Assembly (NCBI RefSeq): GCF_017051705.1
Contig: NZ_JAFIDJ010000002.1
Span: forward strand, 888,384-952,383
Source of the DNA: Algoriphagus lutimaris
GTDB taxonomy: Bacteria > Bacteroidota > Bacteroidia > Cytophagales > Cyclobacteriaceae
Length of the DNA stretch: 64,000 nt
Direction of reading: 5' to 3'
Position numbers and translations under genes: made by a program. Below the pieces are notes generated by a model. It was not told the DNA's origin. It ran no database searches and worked only from the letters and a program-made list of their open reading frames with translations. Positions 28,571 to 44,673 of this stretch are shown one piece after another; position 1 is the first letter of the stretch, and every line of letters begins with the position of its first letter.

Positions 28571-29263
28571 TTATTTTCCTGCTGCAATGGTAATCAAATC
28601 TACAGTTTTTGCTCCATTAGCCAAAAGCACATTTGCACAAGAGCATAGAGTCGCCCCCGTGGTAATTACGTCATCTACCAATAAAATTCTTCTTCCATCT
28701 GTCGGCCTAGCTAAAACAAAAACTTCATCCACATTTTCCATTCTTTGAATTCTTGTCTTCTTAGTCTGAGTTTCAGTGAATTTCTTTCTTTCTAACAATT
28801 CTTCCATAGGTAATTTCAATCCATTGGAAAGCCCTTTTGCAAACTCCTCACTTTGATTGTAGCCTCTACGATATTTTTTAATGGGATGAAGTGGAACCGG
28901 AACAATAACATCCCAATTTTTTGTCAAATCAACTTCATTTAATTGATAGGAATAAAGTTCCCCTAATTGAATTCCTAGCTTTGGCTTATTTCGATATTTA
29001 AGACAATGGAGAATTTTTTGACTTTGACCATTTTTTGTAAATCTTAAAAATGACATGGTCATACCCACATTTGCGATACCTTTTATTTTTTGAATTAGGT
29101 CATTTTCACTTGGCATCAGATGATATAGTGTTTTAGGTAGCGTTCCAATGCATATTTTACAAAGGCAGGATTCAAAATCAAATAAATTTCTACCACATAA
29201 ATCACAGGTTCTGGGGAATATTAAATCAAAAAAATCTTTGATAAAAAGTAAACGCATCAGCAA
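28571..29263 (-). CDS. comF: ComF family amidophosphoribosyltransferase-like protein
   Basis: 230 residues. The N-terminal zinc finger has CDLCGR and CLCKIC (four Cys). The C-terminal phosphoribosyltransferase domain has the PRPP loop in RRILLVDDVITTGATLCSCA and the family motif RRGYNQSEEFAKGL. ComF is needed for DNA uptake in naturally competent bacteria, but homologues are found in most Bacteroidota, and the role there is less clear. First gene of the minus-strand run ending with the thioesterase. Confidence 0.9.
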   Translation of the reverse strand: MLMRLLFIKDFFDLIFPRTCDLCGRNLFDFESCLCKICIGTLPKTLYHLMPSENDLIQKIKGIANVGMTMSFLRFTKNGQSQKILHCLKYRNKPKLGIQLGELYSYQLNEVDLTKNWDVIVPVPLHPIKKYRRGYNQSEEFAKGLSNGLKLPMEELLERKKFTETQTKKTRIQRMENVDEVFVLARPTDGRRILLVDDVITTGATLCSCANVLLANGAKTVDLITIAAGK

Positions 29264-29340: not shown

Positions 29341-29682
29341 ATGAATCTCATAGAGGAATTCAATGATTATAGAGCGATGATGAATGAAAAAATCATGGCT
29401 GCTGACAATAAAGTGTTAAAGAGGATTTTCAATTTGGATACGAATGCCTTTGCTGAAGGTGCTCTGGATGTCAAAACCAAAGAAATGTTGGGTCTTGCTT
29501 GTTCGATGGTTTTGAGGTGTGATGATTGCGTAAAATATCATCTAGGCAAATGCAAAGAGGTTGGATTGAATAAAACCGAAATTTTTGAGGTATTTTCGAT
29601 TGCAACTTTAATAGGTGGATCCATTGTAATTCCTCATTTAAGAAGAGCTTCAGAATACTGGGAAGAACTTGAAAATCAATAG
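29341..29682 (+). CDS. AhpD-like carboxymuconolactone decarboxylase family protein
   Basis: 113 residues. The redox motif CDDC (Cys60, Cys63) with His67 lies in VLRCDDCVKYHLGKCKEVG, as in AhpD-type alkylhydroperoxidases. The surrounding helices (MLGLACSMVL, IFEVFSIATLIGGSIV) fit the CMD fold. It probably takes part in thiol-peroxide metabolism; a lactone decarboxylase role is unlikely because of the CxxC. First gene of a plus-strand run reaching to 36.2 kb. TATATTTG at 29301-29308 could be its -7 box, but no TTTG lies 19 bases upstream. Confidence 0.85.
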   Translation: MNLIEEFNDYRAMMNEKIMAADNKVLKRIFNLDTNAFAEGALDVKTKEMLGLACSMVLRCDDCVKYHLGKCKEVGLNKTEIFEVFSIATLIGGSIVIPHLRRASEYWEELENQ

Positions 29683-29690
29683 TTTACAAG

Positions 29691-30053
29691 ATGTTTAAAA
29701 AGGATTTAGATCTAGAAAAAAGGTGGGCCAAACTGTTAGAAGGTCTAAAAGAAACGATAGGAAAAAAACCATCAGATCTAAATGGCGTTTTGTTTCTAAT
29801 AGGAGTACAAGAATTGGGTCAGGGAAACAAGACTTTTACGAAGGAGCAAAAGCAAGATTTGATGCATATTGCCATTTGTAAAGTACTAAGCTATGATGGT
29901 TTCTATGAGTTAGACTTTGTAGACCAAGATGGTTGGCCACACTGGAAGTTGGTAAAAGAGCTTCCATATTTCGATTTATTGGAACAAGAAAAATTGTTAA
30001 AAATTCAGGTACTGGAATATTTTGAAAAAGAGTACGAAATAGAAATAAAGTAA
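29691..30053 (+). CDS. Conserved small protein of unknown function
   Basis: 120 residues, mostly helical, no signal peptide or membrane segment. Seen: NGVLFLIGVQELGQGNKTF, KQDLMHIAICKVLSYDGFYE and DGWPHWKLVKELPYFDLLEQ. It seems to be a soluble Bacteroidota-type protein, and I cannot assign a family function. It sits between the AhpD-like gene (8 bases) and xth (2 bases) and is therefore translated as part of a compact operon. Confidence 0.7.
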   Translation: MFKKDLDLEKRWAKLLEGLKETIGKKPSDLNGVLFLIGVQELGQGNKTFTKEQKQDLMHIAICKVLSYDGFYELDFVDQDGWPHWKLVKELPYFDLLEQEKLLKIQVLEYFEKEYEIEIK

Positions 30054-30820: not shown

Positions 30821-30852
30821 ATCATACCTGTTGATCATTGAATAAAATTAAG

Positions 30853-31254
30853 ATGAAATCAATAAAAATTTCCATACCCTCATTAATAGAGAATATTAAA
30901 ATAATCGAAAGTTTTATCGATAACGCAAGAGAAAACTTCGATATCAACGATGATATCTATGGAAATATCATGATTTCCGTCACAGAATGCATCAGCAATG
31001 CAATTATTCATGGAAATCAACATGACAAGAATAAATTAGTCCATCTGGAACTATTTATGGAAGATGAGCTTTTACGGTTCATTATAGAAGATGAAGGTCC
31101 TGGCTTTGATCTAACAGAATTAAGAGACCCTACAGAACCGGAAAACATAGAAAAACCAGGAGGAAGGGGAATTTTCCTGATCAAACATTTATCCGACGAA
31201 GTAAAATTTGAAGAGGAAGGAAGAAAGACCATTTTATCTTTCTATATGAATTAA
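30853..31254 (+). CDS. RsbW-like anti-sigma/ATP-binding protein
   Basis: 133 residues from the ATG at 30853; an in-frame TTG at 30838 would add only five residues. A single GHKL ATPase domain: N-box TECISNAIIHGNQHDKN, G1 box EDEGPGFDLTEL and G2 box GRGIFLIKHLSDEVKFE. This is the RsbW/SpoIIAB serine-kinase anti-sigma fold. No anti-anti-sigma (STAS) or sigma gene is adjacent, so the partner is unknown. It lies between xth and ybeY; in Bacteroidota a small kinase of this type is often found here. Confidence 0.85.
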   Translation: MKSIKISIPSLIENIKIIESFIDNARENFDINDDIYGNIMISVTECISNAIIHGNQHDKNKLVHLELFMEDELLRFIIEDEGPGFDLTELRDPTEPENIEKPGGRGIFLIKHLSDEVKFEEEGRKTILSFYMN

Positions 31255-31683: not shown

Positions 31684-31699
31684 TGTTCCACGTGGAACA
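31684..31699. promoter_or_regulatory. parS: parS site 1 (ParB binding)
   Basis: A perfect 16-bp palindrome TGTTCCACGTGGAACA. It matches the highly conserved bacterial parS consensus TGTTnCACGTGnAACA and lies just past the ybeY stop. Confidence 0.9.
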
Positions 31700-31729: not shown

Positions 31730-31745
31730 TGTTTCACGTGAAACA
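31730..31745. promoter_or_regulatory. parS: parS site 2 (ParB binding)
   Basis: A perfect 16-bp palindrome TGTTTCACGTGAAACA, the best-known parS sequence. It is 46 bp from site 1 and 20 bases upstream of mnmG. Such sites mark the origin region, where ParB loads and spreads. Confidence 0.95.
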
Positions 31746-31764: not shown

Positions 31765-33630
31765 ATGTTTCCAAAATATGATGTAATTGTAGTAGGAGCA
31801 GGACATGCTGGATGTGAAGCGGCGCATGCAGCAGCACAAATGGGTTCCAAGGTATTATTGTGTACAATGAATATGAATACCATTGCCCAAATGTCTTGTA
31901 ATCCTGCAATGGGAGGAGTGGCAAAAGGTCAAATCGTTCGAGAAATTGACGCGTTGGGAGGAATGTCTGGAATAATTTCAGATAAATCCATGATTCAGTT
32001 TAGAATGCTAAACAGATCAAAAGGCCCAGCTATGTGGTCACCACGATCTCAAAATGATAGGATGAGATTCGCAGAAGAGTGGAGATTAGCCTTAGAGAGA
32101 ACACCAAATGTGGATTTCTGGCAAGAAATGATTACTGGAATCCTAGTAAAGGATGGCAGAGCAAAAGGAGTCAGAACAGGTATAGGGATAGAGATTGAGG
32201 CAGAAAGCGTAGTTTTGACCAATGGAACTTTCCTAAATGGTCTTATTCATATTGGAGAAAAACAATTTGGAGGAGGTAGAACAGGAGAAGCTGCTGCTAA
32301 AGGAATTACAGAACAATTGGTTTCTTTGGGTTTCGAATCTGGTAGGATGAAGACTGGAACCCCTCCAAGAGTGGATGGAAGAAGTTTGGATTATACCAAA
32401 ATGGAAGTTCAGTATGGGGATGAAAATCCAGAGAAATTCAGCTATTCTGATGAAACTCAACCTATCAAAGAGCAAAGAACCTGCTGGATAACTTATACCA
32501 ATAAAGATGTTCATAGTACTTTAGAGGAAGGATTTGACCGTTCTCCCATGTTTAATGGAAGGATTCAAGGATTAGGTCCGAGATATTGTCCTTCTATTGA
32601 AGACAAGATAAATAGGTTTGCAGAACGAGATAGACACCAAATATTTGTGGAACCTGAAGGGTGGGACACAGTAGAAATCTACGTCAACGGATTTTCGACC
32701 TCTTTACCTGAAGACGTACAATACAAAGCAATCCGTAAAATCGCTGGGTTCGAAAACGCAAAAATGTTTAGACCGGGATATGCTATAGAATATGATTTCT
32801 TCCCACCAACTCAGCTCAAACTTACTTTAGAAACCCAATTGGTAGAAAACTTATACTTCGCAGGACAGATCAACGGTACCACAGGCTATGAAGAAGCAGC
32901 ATCTCAAGGACTAATTGCTGGAATCAATGCAAGTTTAAAAGTACAGGAAAAGGAACCTTTCTTATTGAAGAGATCAGATGCATACATAGGTGTTCTAATT
33001 GATGATTTGATAAATAAAGGGACTGAAGAACCCTATAGAATGTTCACATCAAGAGCAGAATTCAGGTTGTTACTTAGACAAGACAATGCAGATTTACGTC
33101 TTACCCAATTAGGCTATGATATTAATTTGGCAAGCCAGGAAAGATTGGATAAAATGCTAAATAAAAAGAAAGAAACTGCCCGGCTAATAAATGATCTAAA
33201 ACAAAAAAAACTGGCTCCAGAACAAATAAATAAAGGTTTAGAACAAATAGGCACAGCAGAAATCAAAGAAAAAATAACAGCAGAAAAACTGTTGAAAAGA
33301 CCGCAAATTGGTTTGAATGACTTAATGATTTTAGATCCCGAATTAGACCAATTCCTATCAGGTTTCACTACTGCTGTCAGGGAACAGGCTGAAGTTCAAA
33401 TTAAATACGACAGCTATATTGAAAAAGAACAGCAGATGGTAGAAAAACTGAGTAATATGGAAAATTATAAAATTCCACTCAAGTTTGATTACTTAACCAT
33501 TCCTGCACTTTCTAATGAAGGAAAACAAAAGCTAAACAAAATAAAACCCGAAACCTTAGGACAAGCTTCAAGAATCAGTGGGGTATCGCCAGCTGACCTC
33601 TCGATCCTTACCGTTTATTTAGGAAGATAA
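31765..33630 (+). CDS. mnmG: tRNA uridine 34 carboxymethylaminomethyl enzyme MnmG
   Basis: 621 residues, full length. FAD-binding N-terminus VIVVGAGHAGCEAAHAAAQM; family motifs CNPAMGGVAKGQIVREIDAL, TGTPPRVDGRSLDYT, GPRYCPSIEDKI and GYEEAASQGLIAGINA; C-terminal helical MnmE-binding domain. With MnmE it modifies the wobble uridine of several tRNAs. mnmG (gidA) is next to the origin in many bacteria, which agrees with the parS sites in front and the DnaA-box stretch 2.5 kb behind. Methyltransferase gene follows after 2 bases. Confidence 0.98.
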   Translation: MFPKYDVIVVGAGHAGCEAAHAAAQMGSKVLLCTMNMNTIAQMSCNPAMGGVAKGQIVREIDALGGMSGIISDKSMIQFRMLNRSKGPAMWSPRSQNDRMRFAEEWRLALERTPNVDFWQEMITGILVKDGRAKGVRTGIGIEIEAESVVLTNGTFLNGLIHIGEKQFGGGRTGEAAAKGITEQLVSLGFESGRMKTGTPPRVDGRSLDYTKMEVQYGDENPEKFSYSDETQPIKEQRTCWITYTNKDVHSTLEEGFDRSPMFNGRIQGLGPRYCPSIEDKINRFAERDRHQIFVEPEGWDTVEIYVNGFSTSLPEDVQYKAIRKIAGFENAKMFRPGYAIEYDFFPPTQLKLTLETQLVENLYFAGQINGTTGYEEAASQGLIAGINASLKVQEKEPFLLKRSDAYIGVLIDDLINKGTEEPYRMFTSRAEFRLLLRQDNADLRLTQLGYDINLASQERLDKMLNKKKETARLINDLKQKKLAPEQINKGLEQIGTAEIKEKITAEKLLKRPQIGLNDLMILDPELDQFLSGFTTAVREQAEVQIKYDSYIEKEQQMVEKLSNMENYKIPLKFDYLTIPALSNEGKQKLNKIKPETLGQASRISGVSPADLSILTVYLGR

Positions 33631-33632
33631 TC

Positions 33633-34529
33633 ATGGCTGAAAGACTCAGTAAATGCCCACTCTGCAAAAGTGGGCTTTTTCTTAATTACACAGAAATCAA
33701 AGATTATGCAGTAAGCAAGGAGACCTTCATTATCTGCCAATGCCAGAATTGTTCCTTACTTTTTACCAATCCTAGACCCAAAGAAGATAAAATAGGTCCC
33801 TATTATGATTTCCCAGAATATTATTCCCACGAAAAGAATAATAAAAATATTACCCAATACATTTATAATAAGGTAAGGGATTATGCAGTTTCTGAGAAAG
33901 TAAAGCTGATTACTTCTCTAAAAGGAACAGGCAAACTTCTGGATTATGGCTGCGGAACAGGAGAATTCCTAAATGCTGCTAAACAAAAGGGTTGGAAAGT
34001 AAAAGGAGTAGAACCTACAAAAAAAGCCAGAGAACAGGCAAATCTACTATTGGAAGATTCGGTCGTGAGAACCATCGATCAGTTAGAAGGTAAAAAGAAA
34101 TATGATGTAATCAGTCTTTTTCATGTATTGGAACACATCCATACACTTAGGAAAACCATAAAAACACTTATAAAACACTTAAAATCAGATGGTTACATAC
34201 TAATTGCTGTCCCGAATCCAGCATCTTGGGATGCACAAAACTATGGAAAAGAATGGGCTGGATGGGACGTACCTAGACACCTTTATCATTTCAATGAAAC
34301 TGCTATCAAAAACTTCGAACAACTATTTGATTTAGAATTAGTTAGAACTGATCCAATGACTTTTGACAGCTACTATGTATCCTTATTATCCGAAGGATAT
34401 CTTCAACCAAATCAACCTACTATTACAAAATACCTAAAAGCAGTAATTTCCGGTTGGAGATCCAACAAAAAAGCAAAAAACCAAATTGGACAATACTCCA
34501 GTAATCTCTTTATTTTTAAAAAGAAGTGA
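33633..34529 (+). CDS. Class I SAM methyltransferase with zinc ribbon
   Basis: 298 residues. The N-terminus has Cys pairs CPLC (8-11) and CQC-QNC (35-40), likely a zinc ribbon. It is followed by a class I methyltransferase fold: KLLDYGCGTGEFLNAAKQ (SAM loop), YDVISLFHVLEHIHTL and GYILIAVPNPASWDAQ. This layout (Methyltransf_23 with zinc ribbon) is common for methylation of small molecules or sugars; the substrate is unknown. Its stop overlaps the GTG start of the next gene by 4 bases, showing translational coupling. Confidence 0.85.
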   Translation: MAERLSKCPLCKSGLFLNYTEIKDYAVSKETFIICQCQNCSLLFTNPRPKEDKIGPYYDFPEYYSHEKNNKNITQYIYNKVRDYAVSEKVKLITSLKGTGKLLDYGCGTGEFLNAAKQKGWKVKGVEPTKKAREQANLLLEDSVVRTIDQLEGKKKYDVISLFHVLEHIHTLRKTIKTLIKHLKSDGYILIAVPNPASWDAQNYGKEWAGWDVPRHLYHFNETAIKNFEQLFDLELVRTDPMTFDSYYVSLLSEGYLQPNQPTITKYLKAVISGWRSNKKAKNQIGQYSSNLFIFKKK

Positions 34530-36187
34530 AATACAGATTATACATAGCATCCCTATTCATCGCTTTTCTATTATATGCTTGCGCAAAGCAAAGCACCCCA
34601 ATGGGAGGACCTCGAGATCAGGACCCACCAGTGGTACTAGAAATGTATCCAACCAACCAAAGTCTGAACCAAAAGCCTGAGGAAATTTTAATCGTATTCG
34701 ATGAATACATCAAACTTGATAACCCTAATAAAAATATTATCATTACTCCTAAAGTAAACAAAGATGAATTAGTAATTACAGCACTAAAAAACATAGTGAA
34801 AATAGAACTGAATCAAGATTTGGAAGACAGTACTACTTATGTATTCAACTTCCAAAAATCTATTCAAGACTTATCGGAGGGTAACCCCACAGAAAATTTA
34901 AAACTTGTTTTTTCTACAGGAGAAACAATAGACAGCTTAAAATTTACAGGAAAAGTCAATAATTACTTTCCAAAAAGAGGATTCTCTTACGAAAATGTAA
35001 TCATAGGATTGTATGAATCAAATGATACAACTGATGTTTTTACAGCTCCTCCTTATTACTTAAGTCAAGCAGATTCATTAGGAAATTTTTCAATTGAAAA
35101 CATCAAAGCAGGAAGGTATAGGGCTTATGCTTGGGATGATGACAATAATTCACTCAAAGCAGAATATAAAAGCGAAGCCTATGATTTCATCCTAGATACC
35201 ATTGATATTCAAAATGAAGTATCAGGAGCAGTATTTAATCTATCCAATGCAGATCAAACTCAAATAAAACTAACAAGATCATCTTCTTCTGGAGGAAATT
35301 ATGACTTAGTACTCAATAAGGATCCTTTAGAAATTGAATTAGAAAATGAAAGAATAGGAAAAGATATTTTTTATAAAGTAGCCGATAAAAAAATCACACT
35401 TTTTTCAAAAGAGCCTATTCAAGACAGCGTGAAAATTGGTGTTCTACTCCAAGATTCGTTGAGTTTTAAGGTAGATACTACCATTTATGCAAAGTTTGAA
35501 GAAACCGAAAGAAGAGCGGAAAAATTAACTTACACAGTTAATTCTGGAAAAAACTTTTACCAGGAGTTATTCATAGAATTAACCTTTAATAAACCACTAG
35601 CTGATATCTATTTCGATTCATTATACATCACCTATGATACAGCATCTCAAATCACTATAACCCCTGAGATGCTTTCTTTTCAAGATTCAATGAAAAGGGA
35701 CCAGTTAAATATTAAACTAGTAATACCTGACTCCCTTAATACAGATATATTCAGTATAAATGCAGCGGATTCTACATTTAAAGATATCGAAGGACAATTC
35801 AATGAAGCAGTTTTAGCAGCAAACTACAGAAAGCTCAAAAGAGAGACCTTAGCAGACGAGATATCAGGACAAATAATAGGTGGGACAGCACCTTACCTCA
35901 TTCAATTAATTGATTCTAAATCCCAAATTGCAAAGGAGCTATACATAACGGATGGAAACCAATTCAAATTTGAACTGTTAGAACCTATTACATACAAAAT
36001 CAGAGTAATCGAAGACTTAAATAAAAATCGCCGATGGGACCCTTCTAATTATCTAGAGAACAGGTACGCTGAACGAGTCTTTTATTACGTACATCCAGAT
36101 ACCAATTTACAAGAGATAGTTGTAAAATCAGGATGGATTACCGAAGACCTTACCATCGAAGCAACTCCAAAAACAGGGTTAAAATAG
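34526..36187 (+). CDS. Ig-like domain lipoprotein
   Basis: 553 residues from a GTG start that overlaps the upstream stop (GTGA). The lipoprotein signal ends in LLYAC, Cys about 19. Next comes a Bacteroidota-type SbsA/Ig-like_5 domain (about 30-130: PPVVLEMYPTNQSLNQKP, EILIVFDEYIKLD). A long beta-rich region follows, with possible carboxypeptidase-regulatory-like folds (SLGNFSIENIKAGRYRAYAW; YKIRVIEDLNKNRRWDP). It should be an outer-membrane or surface lipoprotein; no enzymatic motif was seen. Last gene before the candidate origin. Confidence 0.85.
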   Translation: MKYRLYIASLFIAFLLYACAKQSTPMGGPRDQDPPVVLEMYPTNQSLNQKPEEILIVFDEYIKLDNPNKNIIITPKVNKDELVITALKNIVKIELNQDLEDSTTYVFNFQKSIQDLSEGNPTENLKLVFSTGETIDSLKFTGKVNNYFPKRGFSYENVIIGLYESNDTTDVFTAPPYYLSQADSLGNFSIENIKAGRYRAYAWDDDNNSLKAEYKSEAYDFILDTIDIQNEVSGAVFNLSNADQTQIKLTRSSSSGGNYDLVLNKDPLEIELENERIGKDIFYKVADKKITLFSKEPIQDSVKIGVLLQDSLSFKVDTTIYAKFEETERRAEKLTYTVNSGKNFYQELFIELTFNKPLADIYFDSLYITYDTASQITITPEMLSFQDSMKRDQLNIKLVIPDSLNTDIFSINAADSTFKDIEGQFNEAVLAANYRKLKRETLADEISGQIIGGTAPYLIQLIDSKSQIAKELYITDGNQFKFELLEPITYKIRVIEDLNKNRRWDPSNYLENRYAERVFYYVHPDTNLQEIVVKSGWITEDLTIEATPKTGLK

Positions 36188-36663
36188 GATTAAATTCCTC
36201 CTGTTGATAACTAGGGATAAGCTGTGGAAAAGAGTAAACAAAAACAGGAAAAAAACATACTTATCCCCATCCTTGTAAAATGAAAAAAACAAATTCATAC
36301 TGTTGGGGGATAACTATAGAAATGTCCACAGAAGCCCAATAAGTAATCCACAGCTATTTTACCAACAGATAATAAAAATTAAAAAACTTCAAAATAGTGG
36401 ATAAAAAATCACTGATCAGAAAATCAAGGATTTACATGTGGAAAAAGCTGGTATAACTGTTGGGATAAAGAAGAATAAACTACTAAAGGATGGTGGAGAA
36501 CTTTTTAAATGAACTTTGTCCACAAATCCACACACCTAATAACTGTAATAGTTCTTTTTTAAAAACTAAATATAATAACTATTAAAAGGTGGATAATGTG
36601 GATAGATTCAAGAATAAGCCATTTTTTCATTAACTTATTTATCCATAACCCAAAAAACACAAA
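36188..36663. other. oriC: Candidate chromosomal replication origin (oriC)
   Basis: 476 bp without a gene, rich in 9-mers close to the DnaA box TTATCCACA. With one mismatch: 36202-36210, 36223-36231, 36261-36269, 36344-36352, 36396-36404, 36437-36445, 36516-36524, 36588-36596, 36597-36605 and 36639-36647. With two mismatches: 36305-36313, 36322-36330, 36460-36468 and 36524-36532. No perfect box was found. An AT-rich tract at about 36541-36588 could be the unwinding element. Hand counts of G and C suggest that skew on the plus strand turns positive to the right of it. Two parS sites and mnmG lie within 5 kb. Confidence 0.75.
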
Positions 36664-38412
36664 ATGGCCTTACATCGATTATTTGATCTTATCCCATATC
36701 AGATCAGTGAATACGATAAAGAGATTTCACTTGCTTTTAAAGAAAATGGTACATGGCAAACTTATTCTTCCAGAGAGGTAAAAGAAATAGTAGATAATTT
36801 GAGCTTGGCATTTTTAAAAGCAGGAATTTCAAAGAATGATAAAGTTGCCCTAATTTCCCAAAATAGACCTGAGTGGAATTTTGTAGACTTGGCTTTGCAG
36901 CAAATAGGGGCGATTTCTATCCCCATGTATCCTACAATAACTATCGAAGATTATCGATACATATTCGATCACGCAGAAGTTAAAATGATTTTTGTAGGAG
37001 ACCAGGAAATTCTAACCAAAGCACAAGAAGCTGCAGATGGCAGGAATATCTACTGTTTTCAGAAATTGGAGGGAGTAGAATTTTGGAGAGATTTTATGGA
37101 ATTAGGTCAAAATGGAGATCTGGGCGAACTAGAACAAGCCAAATTGAAAGTAACTCCCGAGGATCTATTCACAATCATTTATACTTCAGGAACGACTGGT
37201 AGACCCAAAGGAGTCATGCTAACTCATCAAAATGTGTTAAGCAATGTGTTGGCAGTTTCTGAGCGCTTAGTTCTTGAAAAGGGAACTAGTAAAGTTTTAA
37301 GCTTTTTGCCTATCTGTCATATTTTTGAGAGAACCGGCTCATTTTGTTGTTTCTATTTGGGTATATCGATTTATTATGCAGAAAGTCTTGAAAAAATTGG
37401 GGATAATCTCAGAGAAATCAAACCCCATGGTTTTAATACTGTTCCTCGACTTTTGGAAAAGATTTATGATAAGATAGTATCTAAGGGATATGAATTGAAA
37501 GGAATAAAAAAGTCACTTTTCTTTTGGGCTTTAAAATTAGGAAATCAATATGATCCAGCAACTGATCAAGGAGCTTGGTATAATTGGCAGTTGAAAATGG
37601 CTAATAAATTGATTTTTAGTAAATGGAGAGAAGCCTTGGGAGGAGAAATAATCCAGATCAATTCAGGTGCCTCTGCATTACAACCTCGATTAGCTAGAAT
37701 TTTCTGGGCTGCTGGAATCAAAGTTTGTGAAGGGTATGGTCTTACAGAGACATCCCCTGTAGTTTCATCATCTATTTGTAACCATGATGAGATCAGAATC
37801 GGTTATGTAGGTAAAATCTTAGAAGGAGTTGAAGTGAAAATCGCTGCAGATGGTGAAATTCTGGTGAAGGGACCCAATGTAATGCAAGGGTATTACAAGC
37901 AGGAGGATCTCACCGCTACTGTACTCCAAAATGGCTGGTTCCACACTGGAGATATTGGAGAGCTGGATGGAGAATACTTAAAAATTACCGATCGAAAGAA
38001 AGAGATGTTTAAAACTTCTGGAGGCAAATACGTTGCTCCGCAAGTAATAGAAAATAAAATCAAAGAATCCAGTCTCATTGACCAGATTATGGTAGTTGGT
38101 GAAAACAGAAATTATCCTGCAGCTCTCATCGTTCCGAGCGAAGATGGCTTGAAAGAATATTGCAGGCATAAAGGATATCCATTTACTCAAATGGCTGAAA
38201 TGGTAGAAAGGCCGGAAATTATTGCTAAATATGAAAGGGTTATAGAGGAGATGAACAAGTATTTTGCAAAATGGGAAACCATTAAACGCTTTAAAATACT
38301 TCCGGATCCATGGTCTATTGAATCTGGTGAATTAACCCCTACTATGAAATTGAAGAGAAAAATCATCTTGGGTAAATTCGAGAAAGAGGTAGAAAATCTT
38401 TATAAATCTTGA
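36664..38412 (+). CDS. Long-chain acyl-CoA synthetase
   Basis: 582 residues, ANL superfamily. AMP-binding motif FTIIYTSGTTGRPKGVMLTH, then FLPICHIFERTGSFCCFYLG, EGYGLTETSPVVS (A5), GWFHTGDIGELDGEYLKITD and the hinge DRKKEMFKTSGGKYVAPQ. It matches the FadD15-type long-chain fatty acid CoA ligases common in Bacteroidota. It activates fatty acids as CoA thioesters and thus feeds the beta-oxidation operon that starts 280 bases downstream. It is the first gene right of the candidate origin. Confidence 0.93.
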   Translation: MALHRLFDLIPYQISEYDKEISLAFKENGTWQTYSSREVKEIVDNLSLAFLKAGISKNDKVALISQNRPEWNFVDLALQQIGAISIPMYPTITIEDYRYIFDHAEVKMIFVGDQEILTKAQEAADGRNIYCFQKLEGVEFWRDFMELGQNGDLGELEQAKLKVTPEDLFTIIYTSGTTGRPKGVMLTHQNVLSNVLAVSERLVLEKGTSKVLSFLPICHIFERTGSFCCFYLGISIYYAESLEKIGDNLREIKPHGFNTVPRLLEKIYDKIVSKGYELKGIKKSLFFWALKLGNQYDPATDQGAWYNWQLKMANKLIFSKWREALGGEIIQINSGASALQPRLARIFWAAGIKVCEGYGLTETSPVVSSSICNHDEIRIGYVGKILEGVEVKIAADGEILVKGPNVMQGYYKQEDLTATVLQNGWFHTGDIGELDGEYLKITDRKKEMFKTSGGKYVAPQVIENKIKESSLIDQIMVVGENRNYPAALIVPSEDGLKEYCRHKGYPFTQMAEMVERPEIIAKYERVIEEMNKYFAKWETIKRFKILPDPWSIESGELTPTMKLKRKIILGKFEKEVENLYKS

Positions 38413-38692: not shown

Positions 38693-39163
38693 ATGAAGCG
38701 AGAAGAGACAGTTGATTATCATATTAAAAGTGCCTGGCATGCTATTTCTAGAATGTACAATCAGAAGGCAGCAGGTGAAGGGTTTACTACAGCGATAGGT
38801 TTTGTCCTGATCAATATTAATTCTAAAGAAGGGACACCGGCTACGAAAATAGCCCCGATGATGGGATTGGAAACAAGAAGCCTTACTCGCATGCTGAAAA
38901 ACATGGAAGAAAAAGGACTCATTTATAAGAAGCCTGATCTTGTAGATAAAAGATCCGTTAGAATATTTTTAACGGAAGAAGGAAAAAGAAAAAAAGAAAT
39001 TTCAATAGCCACTATCAAGGAGTTTAACGAACTGATTCGCGAGGTAGTAAGCGAAACTGATTTGAAAAATTTCTTTCAAGTTTTTGAGAAAATTCAATTG
39101 GTGATCGATCAGGTTCAGTCCGAAGGATCAGATGAAATCAACAAAATCATATTTGAACTATAA
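38693..39163 (+). CDS. MarR family transcriptional regulator
   Basis: 156 residues. Winged helix-turn-helix in the middle: GTPATKIAPMMGLETRSLTR (helices 3-4), MLKNMEEKGLIYKKPDLVDK and RSVRIFLTEEGKRKKEI (wing with the conserved D-x-R-S/R). Flanking helices form the dimer. It is encoded 45 bases before the beta-oxidation genes on the same strand and probably represses them until an acyl-CoA or fatty acid binds. The ligand is inferred from context only. Confidence 0.88.
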   Translation: MKREETVDYHIKSAWHAISRMYNQKAAGEGFTTAIGFVLININSKEGTPATKIAPMMGLETRSLTRMLKNMEEKGLIYKKPDLVDKRSVRIFLTEEGKRKKEISIATIKEFNELIREVVSETDLKNFFQVFEKIQLVIDQVQSEGSDEINKIIFEL

Positions 39164-39208
39164 ACTAAGAGCCTTATTAGGCCAATAACTACCGAAAAAC
39201 CCAAAGAA

Positions 39209-41614
39209 ATGAAAAGAACTATAAAAAATGTCGCCATTTTAGGTTCAGGAGTGATGGGGTCAAGAATTGCCTGTCATTTCGCAAACATAGGTGTACAAGT
39301 ACTTTTATTAGATATTGTTCCTTTCGAATTAACGGAACAGGAAGAGCAGAAAGGATTAACGAAAGAGCACCCGATGGTCCGAAATAGGATTGTAAATACG
39401 GCTTTGCAAAATACCTTAAAAGCTAAACCATCTCCTATCTATGATAAGGACTTTGCCTCAAGAATTCGGACTGGAAACTTTGATGATGATTTATCTAAAA
39501 TCAAAGATTATGACTGGATTATGGAAGTGGTCGTAGAACGACTGGATATTAAGCAATCACTTTTTGAAAAGGTTGAAAAATTCAGGAAACCTGGAACCTT
39601 GATTACCTCCAATACATCTGGTATTCCTATGCATATGATGTGTGAAGGTAGGTCTGAAGATTTTCAGATCAATTTTGCAGGAACTCACTTTTTTAATCCT
39701 CCTCGCTATCTCAGGTTATTGGAGATTATTCCAGGGCCTAAAACGAATCCTGAGATTATCGAATTCCTGATGGATTATGGAGATAAATTTCTAGGTAAAG
39801 AAACGGTCTTGTGTAAAGATACTCCTGCTTTTATTGCCAATAGAATTGGAGTGTATGCCATTATTTCGGCTATGCATTCTATTGAAAAAATGGGATTAGG
39901 TGTCTCTGAAGTGGATAAATTGACGGGAACGGTGATAGGTAGAGCAAAATCTGCCACGTTTAGAACCATGGATGTTGTGGGATTGGATACTACAGTGAAT
40001 GTGGCCAATAACCTATACAAAGCACTTCCCAATGATGAATCTCGAGAGAAATTTAAGCTCCCAAAAATTGTCGAAGTCCTTTATGACAATAAGTGGTTTG
40101 GAGATAAAACAGGCCAAGGTTATTTCAAAATGATCCGTCATAAAGATGGATCGAAAGAATTAAAAGAAATTGACTTCAATACATTCGAATACAAGGACGT
40201 TGAAAAACCAAAATTTAAAGCATTAGAAGCCTCCAAAAGCATTGAAGACCTAAAAGAGCGACTCAAGTTCTTGGTCAATTTTGATGATCAAGCCGGAGAA
40301 TTTTACCGCACCACTTTTTATGACTTGTTCAGGTACTGTTCCAATAGAATACCGGAAATAGCTGATGAGTTGTATAGAATCGATCAGGCGGTAAGCGCAG
40401 GTTTTGGATGGGAATATGGACCTTTTGAAACTTGGGATTTTCTGGGAGTAAAAGAAACGGTAGAAAAAATGGAAGCTGCAGGCGAAAAACCAGCAGCTTG
40501 GGTATATGAAATGTTAGACGCTGGCAATTCTTCATTTTACAAAGTAGATGCAGGCAAAAAACACTATTATGATATTCCTACTAAGACATACAAAGAGGTA
40601 CCTGGAATAGAGGATTTCATCATTCTTGATACGTTAAAATCTGCAGGGAAAAAGATCTGGGGAAATGCTGGAGCTACAGTCTATGATATGGGTGATGAGG
40701 TGATCGGATTGGAATTTCATACCAAAATGAATTCCATGGGGTCTGAAGTGGTAGAAGGGATCAATACTGCGATTGGAATGGCAGAAAAATCTTACAAAGG
40801 ATTGGTGATTGGAAACGAGGGGGCCAATTTCTCTGCGGGAGCCAACCTTGCCATGTTGTTTATGTTTGCCGGGGATCAGGATTTCGATGAGATCAATTTA
40901 ATGATTGCCCAATTCCAAAATACTATGATGCGAGCTAGATTTTCTTCTGTTCCAGTGGTGGTAGCTCCTCATAATATGACCTTGGGAGGTGGATGTGAAC
41001 TCTCTTTACATTCAGATCATGTTCAAGCTCATGCAGAATTGTATATGGGATTAGTGGAAGTCGGTGTAGGCTTAATACCTGCAGGTGGTGGTACCAAAGA
41101 AATGACCTTGAGATTTTCAGATAGCTTGATTAGTGGGGATGTGGAATTGAATCAACTACAGGAATACTTTATGAACATTGCCATGGCAAAGGTTTCTACC
41201 TCTGCTCAGGAAGCAAAAGATTTGGGTTATCTGAGAAAGAGCGACGGAATTACATTGAACCGTAAGCGACAATTGGCAGATGCCAAATCCAAAGTAATTT
41301 CCCTGTTTAATGAGGGCTATTCACAGCCTATAGAAAAGAAAGACATTAAAGTACTTGGAAAGGAATCCTTGGCTTTATTTGAAGCAGGTATTACCGGAAT
41401 GCAATACGGAGCCTATATTTCTGAACATGATGCTAAAATCGCCAGAAAACTGGCTTGGGTAATGTCAGGGGGAGACTTGTCTTCTCCAACAGAGGTATCA
41501 GAACAATATTTATTGGATTTGGAACGAGAGGCATTTTTAAGTTTGACCGGAGAGAAAAAGACCTTAGAAAGAATACATAGCATTCTGTTCAAAGGAAAAC
41601 CTTTGAGAAATTAA
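39209..41614 (+). CDS. fadN: 3-hydroxyacyl-CoA dehydrogenase / enoyl-CoA hydratase
   Basis: 801 residues with the dehydrogenase part first: NAD motif VAILGSGVMGSRIACHFAN, GTHFFNPPRYLRLLEIIPG and AFIANRIGVYAII. A second HAD_C-like region is at about 350-430. The crotonase part is at the C-terminus (about 500-700: GNEGANFSAGANLAMLFMFA, oxyanion residues; APHNMTLGGGCELSLHSDH; GVGLIPAGGGTKEM). This order is that of Bacillus FadN and opposite to E. coli FadB. It carries out the hydration and NAD-dependent oxidation steps of fatty acid beta-oxidation. Thiolase and acyl-CoA dehydrogenase genes follow within 45 bases each. Confidence 0.92.
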   Translation: MKRTIKNVAILGSGVMGSRIACHFANIGVQVLLLDIVPFELTEQEEQKGLTKEHPMVRNRIVNTALQNTLKAKPSPIYDKDFASRIRTGNFDDDLSKIKDYDWIMEVVVERLDIKQSLFEKVEKFRKPGTLITSNTSGIPMHMMCEGRSEDFQINFAGTHFFNPPRYLRLLEIIPGPKTNPEIIEFLMDYGDKFLGKETVLCKDTPAFIANRIGVYAIISAMHSIEKMGLGVSEVDKLTGTVIGRAKSATFRTMDVVGLDTTVNVANNLYKALPNDESREKFKLPKIVEVLYDNKWFGDKTGQGYFKMIRHKDGSKELKEIDFNTFEYKDVEKPKFKALEASKSIEDLKERLKFLVNFDDQAGEFYRTTFYDLFRYCSNRIPEIADELYRIDQAVSAGFGWEYGPFETWDFLGVKETVEKMEAAGEKPAAWVYEMLDAGNSSFYKVDAGKKHYYDIPTKTYKEVPGIEDFIILDTLKSAGKKIWGNAGATVYDMGDEVIGLEFHTKMNSMGSEVVEGINTAIGMAEKSYKGLVIGNEGANFSAGANLAMLFMFAGDQDFDEINLMIAQFQNTMMRARFSSVPVVVAPHNMTLGGGCELSLHSDHVQAHAELYMGLVEVGVGLIPAGGGTKEMTLRFSDSLISGDVELNQLQEYFMNIAMAKVSTSAQEAKDLGYLRKSDGITLNRKRQLADAKSKVISLFNEGYSQPIEKKDIKVLGKESLALFEAGITGMQYGAYISEHDAKIARKLAWVMSGGDLSSPTEVSEQYLLDLEREAFLSLTGEKKTLERIHSILFKGKPLRN

Positions 41615-41658
41615 ATCGCCTGGTATCAAGAAACTCAATAACTCAAAAAAGCACAATA

Positions 41659-42834
41659 ATGGAAGCATATATAGTAAATGGATATAGGTCTGCAGTGGGT
41701 AAAGCCAAAAAAGGAGGTTTTAGGTTTTATAGACCTGATGATTTGGCCGCTGATGTAATCACTCATTTGATTGCCAATACACCTGGTTTGGAAACAAAGC
41801 ACATCGATGATTTGATTGTTGGAAATGCGGTACCCGAGGCAGAACAAGGCATGCAAATGGGTAGAATGATTTCTTTGCTTGCACTTGGAATCGATAATCC
41901 CGGATTTATCATCAACAGGTATTGTGGCTCCGGATTGGAAGCTATTGCTTTGGCTGTAGGAAAAGTGAAAGCTGGAATGGCTGATTGCATCATTGCTGGA
42001 GGAACTGAAAGTATGTCCTTGGTACCGATGATGGGCTACAAAACGGTTTTGAATTATAAAATTGCTACCGAGCATCCATCCTACTACATCAGTATGGGAT
42101 TGACTGCAGAGGAATTGGCAAAAGAATATAACATTACTAGAGAAGAGGCTGATGCGTTTTCAGTTCGGTCACATGAGCGAGCTTTGGCTGCTATTGCCGA
42201 AGGAAAATTTAAAGATGAAATCGTCCCTGTAGAAGTTGAAGAAACTTACTTGGATGAAAAAGGGAAAAAGAAAACCAGAAAATATGTGGTAGACACGGAT
42301 GAGGGCCCTAGACCTGGTACTACCCTGGAAGTTTTGTCCGGTTTGAAGCCTGCATTTAAAAATGGAGGGCAAGTCACTGCAGGTAATTCTTCCCAAACTT
42401 CTGACGGAGCTTCTTTTGTCGTGGTGATGTCTGAAAAGTTCATGAAGTCTCTCAATTTGGAGCCCGTAGCGAGATTAATGTCTTACAGTGTTGCTGGGGT
42501 AGATCCAAGAATTATGGGAATTGGCCCAAAAGAGGCTGTTCCAAAAGCCCTGAAGCAAGCTGGGCTAAGTCTACAGGATATTGATTTAGTGGAATTGAAT
42601 GAAGCATTTGCTGCTCAAGGTTTGGCAGTTATTAAGTCCTTGGATTTGAATCCTGATATCGTCAATGTCAATGGTGGAGCAGTAGCATTAGGGCACCCGT
42701 TAGGTTGTACTGGAGCAAAACTTTCGGTACAGATTTTTAACGAGTTAAGGAGACAAAATAAAAAATATGGCCTCGTAACTGCGTGTGTTGGTGGTGGTCA
42801 AGGAGTAGCAGGCGTTTATGAGTTATTGAAATAA
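41659..42834 (+). CDS. fadA: Acetyl-CoA C-acyltransferase (thiolase)
   Basis: 391 residues. Nucleophile Cys in NRYCGSGLEAIALAVGK (about residue 92), GGTESMSLVPM, the catalytic His in NGGAVALGHPLGCTGAK and the C-terminal CVGGGQGVAGVYE with the second Cys near GLVTACVGGG. It cleaves 3-ketoacyl-CoA in the last step of beta-oxidation. The biosynthetic direction is less likely given the operon partners. Confidence 0.93.
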   Translation: MEAYIVNGYRSAVGKAKKGGFRFYRPDDLAADVITHLIANTPGLETKHIDDLIVGNAVPEAEQGMQMGRMISLLALGIDNPGFIINRYCGSGLEAIALAVGKVKAGMADCIIAGGTESMSLVPMMGYKTVLNYKIATEHPSYYISMGLTAEELAKEYNITREEADAFSVRSHERALAAIAEGKFKDEIVPVEVEETYLDEKGKKKTRKYVVDTDEGPRPGTTLEVLSGLKPAFKNGGQVTAGNSSQTSDGASFVVVMSEKFMKSLNLEPVARLMSYSVAGVDPRIMGIGPKEAVPKALKQAGLSLQDIDLVELNEAFAAQGLAVIKSLDLNPDIVNVNGGAVALGHPLGCTGAKLSVQIFNELRRQNKKYGLVTACVGGGQGVAGVYELLK

Positions 42835-42879
42835 TTCAAGCTTCAAAATCGAAAAAGAAAAAAATTAATAGCATTCCAA

Positions 42880-44673
42880 ATGGCAACGTTAGCAAAATCT
42901 ATCAAAGGAGGAGAATTCCTGGTTCGGGAAACCTCAGCACATGAAATTTTTATTCCAGAGGAATATACTGAAGAGCAAAAAATGATGGCTCTGGCTTGTC
43001 AGGACTTTATTGACACTGAAATTACTCCTAAGATTGAGGAGATTGATAGTATGAAAAATCCTGATCTGGTTCCTTCAATTTTCAAAAAAGCGGGTGAACT
43101 TGGCTTATTAGGAATCTCTGTACCTGAAGAGTATGGAGGGATGGGGATGAACTTTGTTACTTCCATGCTGATTGCGGATATCATTGGCTCAGCTGGTTCC
43201 TTTTCTACAACTTATGGAGCGCATACCGGAATCGGAACCCTTCCGATTTTGTATTACGGTACGGAAGAGCAAAAGCAAAAGTATCTGCCAAAGCTAGCCA
43301 CTGGTGAGTGGGCAGCATGTTATTGCTTGACAGAACCCGATGCAGGATCGGATGCGAACAGTGGAAAAACCAAAGCAGAACTAACGCCGGACGGTAAGCA
43401 TTATTTGATTAATGGGCAAAAGATGTGGATTTCGAATGCAGGATTCGCTGACTTATTTATCGTCTTTGCCAAAATTGAGGACGATAAGAATTTGACCGCT
43501 TTTATTGTTGAAAAAACATTTGGGGGAATCACCATGAATGAGGAGGAGAAAAAGATGGGTATTAAAGGGTCCTCTACCCGTCAGGTATTCTTCAATGATT
43601 GTAAGGTTCCGGTAGAAAACATGCTTTCGGACCGTCAAAATGGATTTAAGATTGCTGTGAATATCTTAAACATTGGTAGAATAAAATTAGGCTCTGGGAT
43701 TTTAGGAGGTGTAAGAGCAGTCACTACGAAAGCAATCAAGTATTCCACGGAAAGAAAACAATTCGGAGTAAGCATCAACACCTTTGGAGCAATTAAATCC
43801 AAGTTGGCAGAAATGGCCATAAGAACATACGTTTCAGAATCGCTTTGCTATAGAGCGGGTCAGGATATAGAAGAGCAGATTAATTCTTTCGTCGCAGAAG
43901 GAATGGAGGAAAGCCAAGCTAAATTAAAGGGAGTAGAAGCTTTTGCCATGGAGTGTGCTATCGCGAAAATACACGGATCTGAAGTATTGGATTATGTAGT
44001 GGATCAAGGTGTCCAAGTGTATGGAGGAATGGGCTATTCTGCGGAAGCACCTATGGAAAGAGCTTATCGGGATGCTCGGATCGCCCGCATTTATGAAGGG
44101 ACGAATGAAATCAACCGGATGTTGATGATTGGAATGCTTTTGAAAAGAGCCATGAAAGGAGAAATTAACTTATTTGAGCCTGCGATGGCTGTTTCTGCTG
44201 AATTGACTTCGGTGCCTTCTTTCGAAACCATTGACACATCTGAGTTATTTGCCTCAGAAAAAGAAGTGCTGAAGAAGTTGAAAAAAGTATTCTTAATGGT
44301 CGGAGGTAAAGCTGCGATGGCATTGCAAGATAAAATTGAAGAGGAGCAGGAAATCATGATGAATTTGGCTGATGTAATGATCGAGATTTATGCTGCAGAA
44401 TCGGCAATTCTTCGGAGTGAAAAACTCGTGAGCATTCAAGGTGAAGAAGCTACTGCCCATCAAATTGCGATGAGCCAGGTTTATTTGGCTGAAGCTGTAG
44501 ATAAAATAAATGCAGCAGCAAAAGAAGCCATTGCAAGTTTTACCAAAGGAGATGAACAAAAAGTGATGCTCATGGGACTGAAAAGATTCACCAAAGCTGA
44601 TTTAGTGAATACCAAGGAACTTAGAAGGCAAATTGCCGATTATATGATCGAGCAAGGGAAATACCCATTTTAA
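42880..44673 (+). CDS. Acyl-CoA dehydrogenase (long-chain type)
   Basis: 597 residues, longer than the ~380 of short-chain enzymes because of a C-terminal helical extension as in VLCAD/FadE-like and Bacillus FadE proteins. FAD/substrate motifs: CYCLTEPDAGSDANSGKTKA, KMWISNAGFADLFIVFAK, RKQFGVSINTFGAIKSKLAE, and YGGMGYSAEAPMERAYRDAR. The catalytic Glu is in IYEGTNEINR. It performs the first, flavin-dependent step of beta-oxidation and should hand electrons to ETF, not encoded here. A strong terminator follows 22 bases downstream, closing the operon. Confidence 0.93.
   Translation: MATLAKSIKGGEFLVRETSAHEIFIPEEYTEEQKMMALACQDFIDTEITPKIEEIDSMKNPDLVPSIFKKAGELGLLGISVPEEYGGMGMNFVTSMLIADIIGSAGSFSTTYGAHTGIGTLPILYYGTEEQKQKYLPKLATGEWAACYCLTEPDAGSDANSGKTKAELTPDGKHYLINGQKMWISNAGFADLFIVFAKIEDDKNLTAFIVEKTFGGITMNEEEKKMGIKGSSTRQVFFNDCKVPVENMLSDRQNGFKIAVNILNIGRIKLGSGILGGVRAVTTKAIKYSTERKQFGVSINTFGAIKSKLAEMAIRTYVSESLCYRAGQDIEEQINSFVAEGMEESQAKLKGVEAFAMECAIAKIHGSEVLDYVVDQGVQVYGGMGYSAEAPMERAYRDARIARIYEGTNEINRMLMIGMLLKRAMKGEINLFEPAMAVSAELTSVPSFETIDTSELFASEKEVLKKLKKVFLMVGGKAAMALQDKIEEEQEIMMNLADVMIEIYAAESAILRSEKLVSIQGEEATAHQIAMSQVYLAEAVDKINAAAKEAIASFTKGDEQKVMLMGLKRFTKADLVNTKELRRQIADYMIEQGKYPF

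Follow-up and report, generated by a model that had tools for sequence, protein, structure and literature searches.

The question raised by this locus is whether an intergenic gap with no dnaA beside it is the place at which an Algoriphagus chromosome begins to replicate. The window analysed here is a single 64,000-nucleotide stretch (G000:C8:888384-952383) of an assembly of 4.72 Mb in 61 contigs. An initial annotation of this window had proposed a candidate origin, uncoupled from dnaA, in the gap between an Ig-like gene and an acyl-CoA ligase gene. The gap, 36188-36663, fills exactly the space between the ORFs at 34526-36187 and 36664-38412, and a Big_5 domain on the left and the ligase on the right bear out the description of its neighbours. 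GC-skew polarity, parS sites, a DnaA-box cluster, duplex instability, conservation across the genus and a sequence profile searched across the order agree on this gap as oriC, and we consider it very probable that it is the single bidirectional origin of this chromosome. The features are collected in Table 1.

Table 1. Features of the candidate origin region and its neighbours, in window coordinates
Feature	Position	Strand	Basis or remark
Very probable oriC region, DnaA-box intergenic gap, 476 bp	36188..36663	.	Box excess and conservation in 21/21 named Algoriphagus/Cyclobacteriaceae loci
DnaA box, 1 mismatch, TTATCAACA	36202..36210	-	
DnaA box, 1 mismatch, TTTTCCACA	36223..36231	-	Conserved block in alignment A1
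DnaA box, 1 mismatch, TTATCCCCA	36261..36269	+	
DnaA box, 1 mismatch, TAATCCACA	36344..36352	+	
DnaA box, 1 mismatch, TTATCCACT	36396..36404	-	
DnaA box, 1 mismatch, TTTTCCACA	36437..36445	-	Conserved block ACATGTGGAnAA
Tandem pair, first box, TTGTCCACA, 1 mismatch	36516..36524	+	Overlaps the best conserved ten-base block, 36520-36529
Tandem pair, second box overlapping the first, AAATCCACA, 2 mismatches	36524..36532	+	Conserved in alignment A2
DnaA-trio-like run, bottom strand 3'-GAT TAT TGA CAT TAT-5'	36536..36550	-	Middle A in 4/5
Predicted DNA unwinding element, AT-rich	36546..36585	.	Nearest-neighbour energy, rank 1 of 63,961 window 40-mers
DnaA box, right of unwinding element, TTATCCACC	36588..36596	-	
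DnaA box, right of unwinding element, CTATCCACA	36597..36605	-	
DnaA box, 1 mismatch, TTATCCATA	36639..36647	+	
parS, perfect	31684..31699	.	Genome-wide site search
parS, perfect	31730..31745	.	Genome-wide site search
mnmG (gidA)	31765..33630	+	TIGR00136, E 3.7e-255
Methyltransferase, between mnmG and oriC	33633..34529	+	PF13489
Ig-like (Big_5) protein, left neighbour of oriC	34526..36187	+	PF13205
Acyl-CoA ligase, right neighbour of oriC	36664..38412	+	

The gap was scanned for copies of TTATCCACA. Ten copies with one mismatch and seven with two were found, in both orientations as the initial annotation had said; its figure of at least ten one-mismatch sites stands, but its count of four two-mismatch sites was too low. 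Not one perfect box was found in this species, which is a point against placing oriC at the gap. The ten one-mismatch boxes compare with 0.15 expected per 476 bp, an approximately 67-fold excess, and the seven two-mismatch boxes with 1.8 expected. The background rate was taken from 864 kb of the same genome in 41 pieces, namely the window and 40 samples of 20 kb, with 15 later samples falling outside it. The densest 500 bp in any of these 40 samples held four one-mismatch boxes, and none of 5000 sequences simulated from the dinucleotides of the gap itself reached ten, the maximum being four. From these counts we conclude that the box cluster exceeds chance. By nearest-neighbour energy, no 40-mer in the window is less stable than the AT-rich tract noted earlier, which puts a predicted easily melted element beside the boxes.

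Genome skew was read from 20-kb samples rather than as a full curve. On the contig that carries the window (C8), skew was negative or about zero left of the window, except for four slightly positive samples at 600-680 kb, and positive in every sample right of it. On contig C1 the samples stayed positive as far as 1.1 Mb, were mixed at 1.14-1.2 Mb and turned negative from there on, the dnaA sample among them. Skew in these samples therefore turns from negative to positive at the gap, as expected for oriC, and back again near C1:1.1-1.2 Mb. Two relatives assembled in one contig were read in the same way. In one (G009) the sign changed between 4.25 Mb, where skew was about zero, and 4.39 Mb, and the orthologous site lies at 4.400 Mb. 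In the other (G021), where the site lies at 4.907 Mb, a second minimum coincided with it, but the deepest among the samples fell approximately 0.2 Mb further left, at about 4.66-4.70 Mb; our guess for this genome is a rearrangement left of the origin (L189-L191, L199-L218; C1, 4.50-5.07 Mb).

The initial annotation had expected the skew minimum to fall in the gap. The polarity does turn here, but the raw cumulative curve of the window bottoms out at 29205, a departure from that expectation only at the 7-kb scale. The same offset of about 7 kb was seen in 18 of 19 relatives, whose loci reach only 8 kb upstream, and gene direction flips at 29.3 kb. Because gene direction can shift a raw skew minimum, we turned to skew at third codon positions, read on the coding strand. 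When the origin was set at the gap, leading ORFs averaged +0.151 (n=228) and lagging ORFs -0.077 (n=186). Left of the gap, the eight plus-strand genes from 29.3 kb onward had a lagging-like mean of -0.074 (sd 0.285): the two leftmost short genes (29341-30053) gave +0.26 and +0.44, mnmG gave +0.04 (it is about zero in most relatives), and the other five were negative. Among 19 Algoriphagus/Cyclobacteriaceae loci (19 of 21, the short contigs L086 and L089 being left out of this and the raw-minimum count), negative third-codon skew was found for 59 of 75 plus-strand ORFs left of the gap and for 4 of 96 right of it. These counts are not independent because the loci are related; the switch nonetheless falls at the gap. 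The third-codon data suggest that the 7-kb offset comes from gene direction, and we rejected the raw minimum as the exact origin in favour of the gap, where third-codon skew switches.

A search of the whole genome for parS with up to one mismatch returned two places only, 31684 and 31730, both perfect and both 4.5 kb left of the gap, just ahead of mnmG. Proximity of parS to oriC is usual in bacteria, not universal. The earlier placement of parS and mnmG within 5 kb of the gap was accurate. We rejected parB as a neighbour of oriC, its only match lying on another contig (G000:C19:67179-67709). An Rfam search of the window returned two tRNAs only. An RsbW-like anti-sigma kinase gene (30838-31254), between xth and ybeY, adjoins parS, and a YfiT-family bacillithiol transferase gene (NF009807; 28030-28587) lies beside a comF-like gene. 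Directly after the ligase, on the plus strand, 38693-44673 encodes a regulator and beta-oxidation genes (MarR-like, FadB-like, thiolase, FadE-like).

The single dnaA of this genome lies on contig C1 (G000:C1:2425927), outside the window as the initial annotation had noted, and encodes a normal, full-length DnaA (TIGR00362, E 4.2e-162). It is not within a few kb of the gap, as it would be for a dnaA-linked oriC. Joining C1 and C8 in the way suggested by their skews would put dnaA about 1.1 Mb from the gap, with about 0.54 Mb of other contigs unplaced. The proposed uncoupling from dnaA is right and unsurprising, as a Prevotella paper reports that oriC commonly lies far from dnaA in Bacteroidetes (PMC4755523).

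Conservation was examined upstream of the ligase gene, whose product is 80-83% identical to its orthologues in A. iocasae, A. pacificus and A. aestuarii and 94% identical in a same-genus genome, which places this genome in or near Algoriphagus. Loci with minus-strand matches were kept in contig direction, and their 'downstream' column was read as the upstream side. The 600 bp before the ligase contained 3-11 boxes in all 21 named Algoriphagus/Cyclobacteriaceae loci, the place of the gap being kept, and the parS pair was found 4.9-5.0 kb upstream in 20 of them, the contig of the 21st being too short. Among 22 same-genus loci, our own included, 19 had 5-10 boxes upstream of the ligase and the remaining three (L060, L061 and L064) end at most 75 bp upstream. 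Ligase orthologues of other families were rejected as a guide to oriC, there being no box cluster directly upstream of them: at least three boxes in the upstream 1.5 kb were found for none of eight such orthologues, and in the upstream 600 bp for none of 59 other named loci. Two Marivirga loci (L097 and L098) had six and four boxes, 2.3-2.4 kb upstream of the ligase and 4.6-4.9 kb from parS; the cluster is about 2 kb further from the ligase there, with the same parS spacing and a changed right flank. We therefore regard the ligase as a local neighbour only. In Agaribacillus aureus (L104) seven one-mismatch boxes occur in 500 bp about 8.1 kb downstream of the ligase start, in a locus without parS.

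The window was aligned with 18 of the 21 named loci (alignment A1; L078, L081 and L085 were left out against redundancy). The best conserved ten-base block of these 19 sequences, 36520-36529, scored 0.94 against 0.66 overall, and the two blocks of 36530-36549 scored 0.85 each; further conserved blocks are 36630-36639 (0.85) and 36430-36439 (0.84). The best blocks belong to a module in which TTGTCCACA is followed by the overlapping AAATCCACA, three bases, a trinucleotide run and the AT-rich element. The top-strand T that pairs with the middle A of trios 1, 2 and 4 was invariant in all 19 aligned rows. The rules given for the basal unwinding system (BUS) in PMC8287927 are a box with up to two mismatches and a second with up to four, a spacer of 0-16 bp, and at least three consecutive trios with a middle A. 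Here the first box (TTGTCCACA) has one mismatch and the second (AAATCCACA) two, and the trios begin 11 bp from the first and 3 bp from the second. Counted from the first trio, the run is two and is then broken by the third, which lacks the middle A; three consecutive trios are found only from the fourth onward (CAT TAT CAA GAA AAA), 12 bp from the second box, under a rule that is lax in AT-rich DNA. As judged from its sequence, the layout fits the published rules, with the strict three-trio run starting at the fourth trio and the rules being lax. Any likeness of the module to the B. subtilis origin beyond these rules is one that we presume.

A sequence-only profile of the module (R1) was built on the genus of the window, the sequence of the gap included. 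In its own genome R1 matched the gap with E 5.7e-20, together with a weaker opposite-strand reading at the same place; no other credible match was obtained there, the next place having E 0.63. Over 146 genomes of the order, 112 matched at E<=0.1 and 67 at E<=1e-3, with no match at E<=0.1 in 34. mnmG and dnaA were sought only in the 67 genomes of the stricter set, and were found in 66 and 65, respectively. In 51 of the 67 genomes the module followed mnmG downstream at a distance of 1.4-8.5 kb, and in 47 of these 51 it ran in the direction of mnmG. The four opposite-strand best matches (G053, G093, G117 and G129) belong to one genus, and each was matched on both strands at the same place. All six genomes of the genus of the window showed this linkage, as did 45 of 61 outside it; by estimate, chance would place a site within 10 kb of mnmG on a given side in about 0.2% of genomes of 5 Mb. 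In 12 of the remaining 16 genomes the module and mnmG were on different contigs, one (G162) had no mnmG match, and in three they were apart on one contig, by 2.7 Mb (G044), 1.7 Mb (G059) and 50 kb (G060). In these three, either the origin has moved or the weak match arose by chance. G044 (C1:3017363) and G059 (C1:2059495) are of one genus.

Module and dnaA shared a contig in 16 relatives, none of which had the two close together, the nearest distance being 378 kb. Perfect parS sites occurred in 41 of the 67 genomes and, by eye, near mnmG in many. We rejected parS as part of an order-wide core, as it lies 24-32 kb from mnmG in several genomes of one genus (e.g. G053, G093 and G139). We see the balance as even on a broader reading, in which the origin is tied across the order to mnmG and not to dnaA, mnmG-oriC being the conserved core of an ancestral origin region, with the module kept in place and direction and dnaA the part that left.

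Three other accounts of these data were weighed. An origin close by, placed either near 29.3 kb, where the gene strand switches, or at parS (31.7 kb), with the gap as an accessory DnaA-binding locus, would agree with the raw cumulative minimum and its offset in relatives, with the flip of gene direction, and with the positive third-codon skew of the two leftmost plus-strand genes. However, there is no box cluster at that position, with one one-mismatch site (28725) within 1 kb of 29.3 kb, and of the five plus-strand genes that lie between 30.8 kb and the gap, four show strongly negative third-codon skew, like that of lagging genes. The ORF counts in relatives likewise change at the gap, and it is downstream of mnmG that the conserved element recurs in the 51 genomes. 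We consider an origin at 29.3 kb or parS very unlikely.

Box clusters are also carried by E. coli loci of the datA/DARS type, and the gap lies upstream of a same-strand gene. It could on these grounds be a locus for DnaA titration or reactivation, or a DnaA-controlled promoter of the ligase, with the origin elsewhere. Against such a function, skew polarity centres on the gap, both parS sites are here and the module adjoins the window's least stable DNA; moreover, beyond the genus it is mnmG that the module accompanies, and the ligase does not keep with it (0/8 and 0/59 loci, as above). We find this reading hardly credible. An origin beside dnaA is the common bacterial layout, and a second origin there might be used instead of, or in addition to, the gap. 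Yet the 20 kb around dnaA (L042) held at most two boxes in any 500 bp, skew was negative in the dnaA sample and in those neighbouring it, and R1 had no match outside the gap below E 0.63. We give this last account next to no chance and retain the gap as the very probable oriC.

With oriC at the gap, initiation may be pictured as follows. DnaA supplied from its distant gene would bind the box array, and DnaA from the tandem pair (36516-36532) would be loaded onto the trinucleotide run (36536-36550), on its bottom strand, and stretch it. The AT-rich element (36546-36585) would then open and the helicase be loaded, and two forks would depart, to the left and to the right. Organisation and segregation of the new origins would fall to ParB at the two parS sites beside mnmG.

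The likely replication start is in this way fixed for the genus; at least one same-genus record (G021) is numbered from dnaA, which misplaces its replichores. The 476-bp fragment might yield replicative vectors for Algoriphagus, and Xu et al. 2012 reportedly describe oriC-based replicative plasmids in Cytophaga hutchinsonii. Among the literature matches listed, none was recognised by title or abstract as treating an Algoriphagus origin or an order-wide mnmG linkage, DoriC tables and subscription papers being outside the scope of this search; DoriC may well hold predicted Algoriphagus origins. Our literature search found no paper on the DnaA-trio in Bacteroidetes, and the compact, conserved candidate unwinding module described here comes from a phylum absent by name from the main text of the BUS survey.

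An oriC apart from dnaA has already been described as common among Bacteroidetes (PMC4755523). We regard this locus as a well-resolved case of a known arrangement, a very probable chromosomal oriC whose conserved module is unusually clear. Two further papers place a predicted oriC at mnmG in two Flavobacteriaceae, Mariniflexile litorale and Algorimicrobium bowmanii (PMC12843772, PMC11278836); in the Mariniflexile paper (PMC11278836) the text sets oriC by mnmG and a figure legend labels ter there. Prevotella intermedia OMA14 and these two species have in common with our case a predicted oriC at a skew transition, which in Prevotella is also far from dnaA. Theirs were predicted with Ori-Finder, each in a single genome or strain, whereas conservation, the unwinding module and order-wide linkage were tested here. 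With the BUS of B. subtilis and other bacteria, as set out in PMC8287927 and PMC6669920, the putative Algoriphagus module shares tandem boxes, a short spacer, a middle-A trinucleotide run and an adjoining AT-rich element. It differs in that its third trio is broken, and oriC of B. subtilis adjoins dnaA (PMC8287927, PMC6669920), whereas that proposed for Algoriphagus does not. In Escherichia coli, oriC lies between mioC and gidA (mnmG) according to PMC10225481 and likewise has mnmG as a neighbour, whereas in Algoriphagus mnmG is 2.6 kb from oriC, with two genes between.
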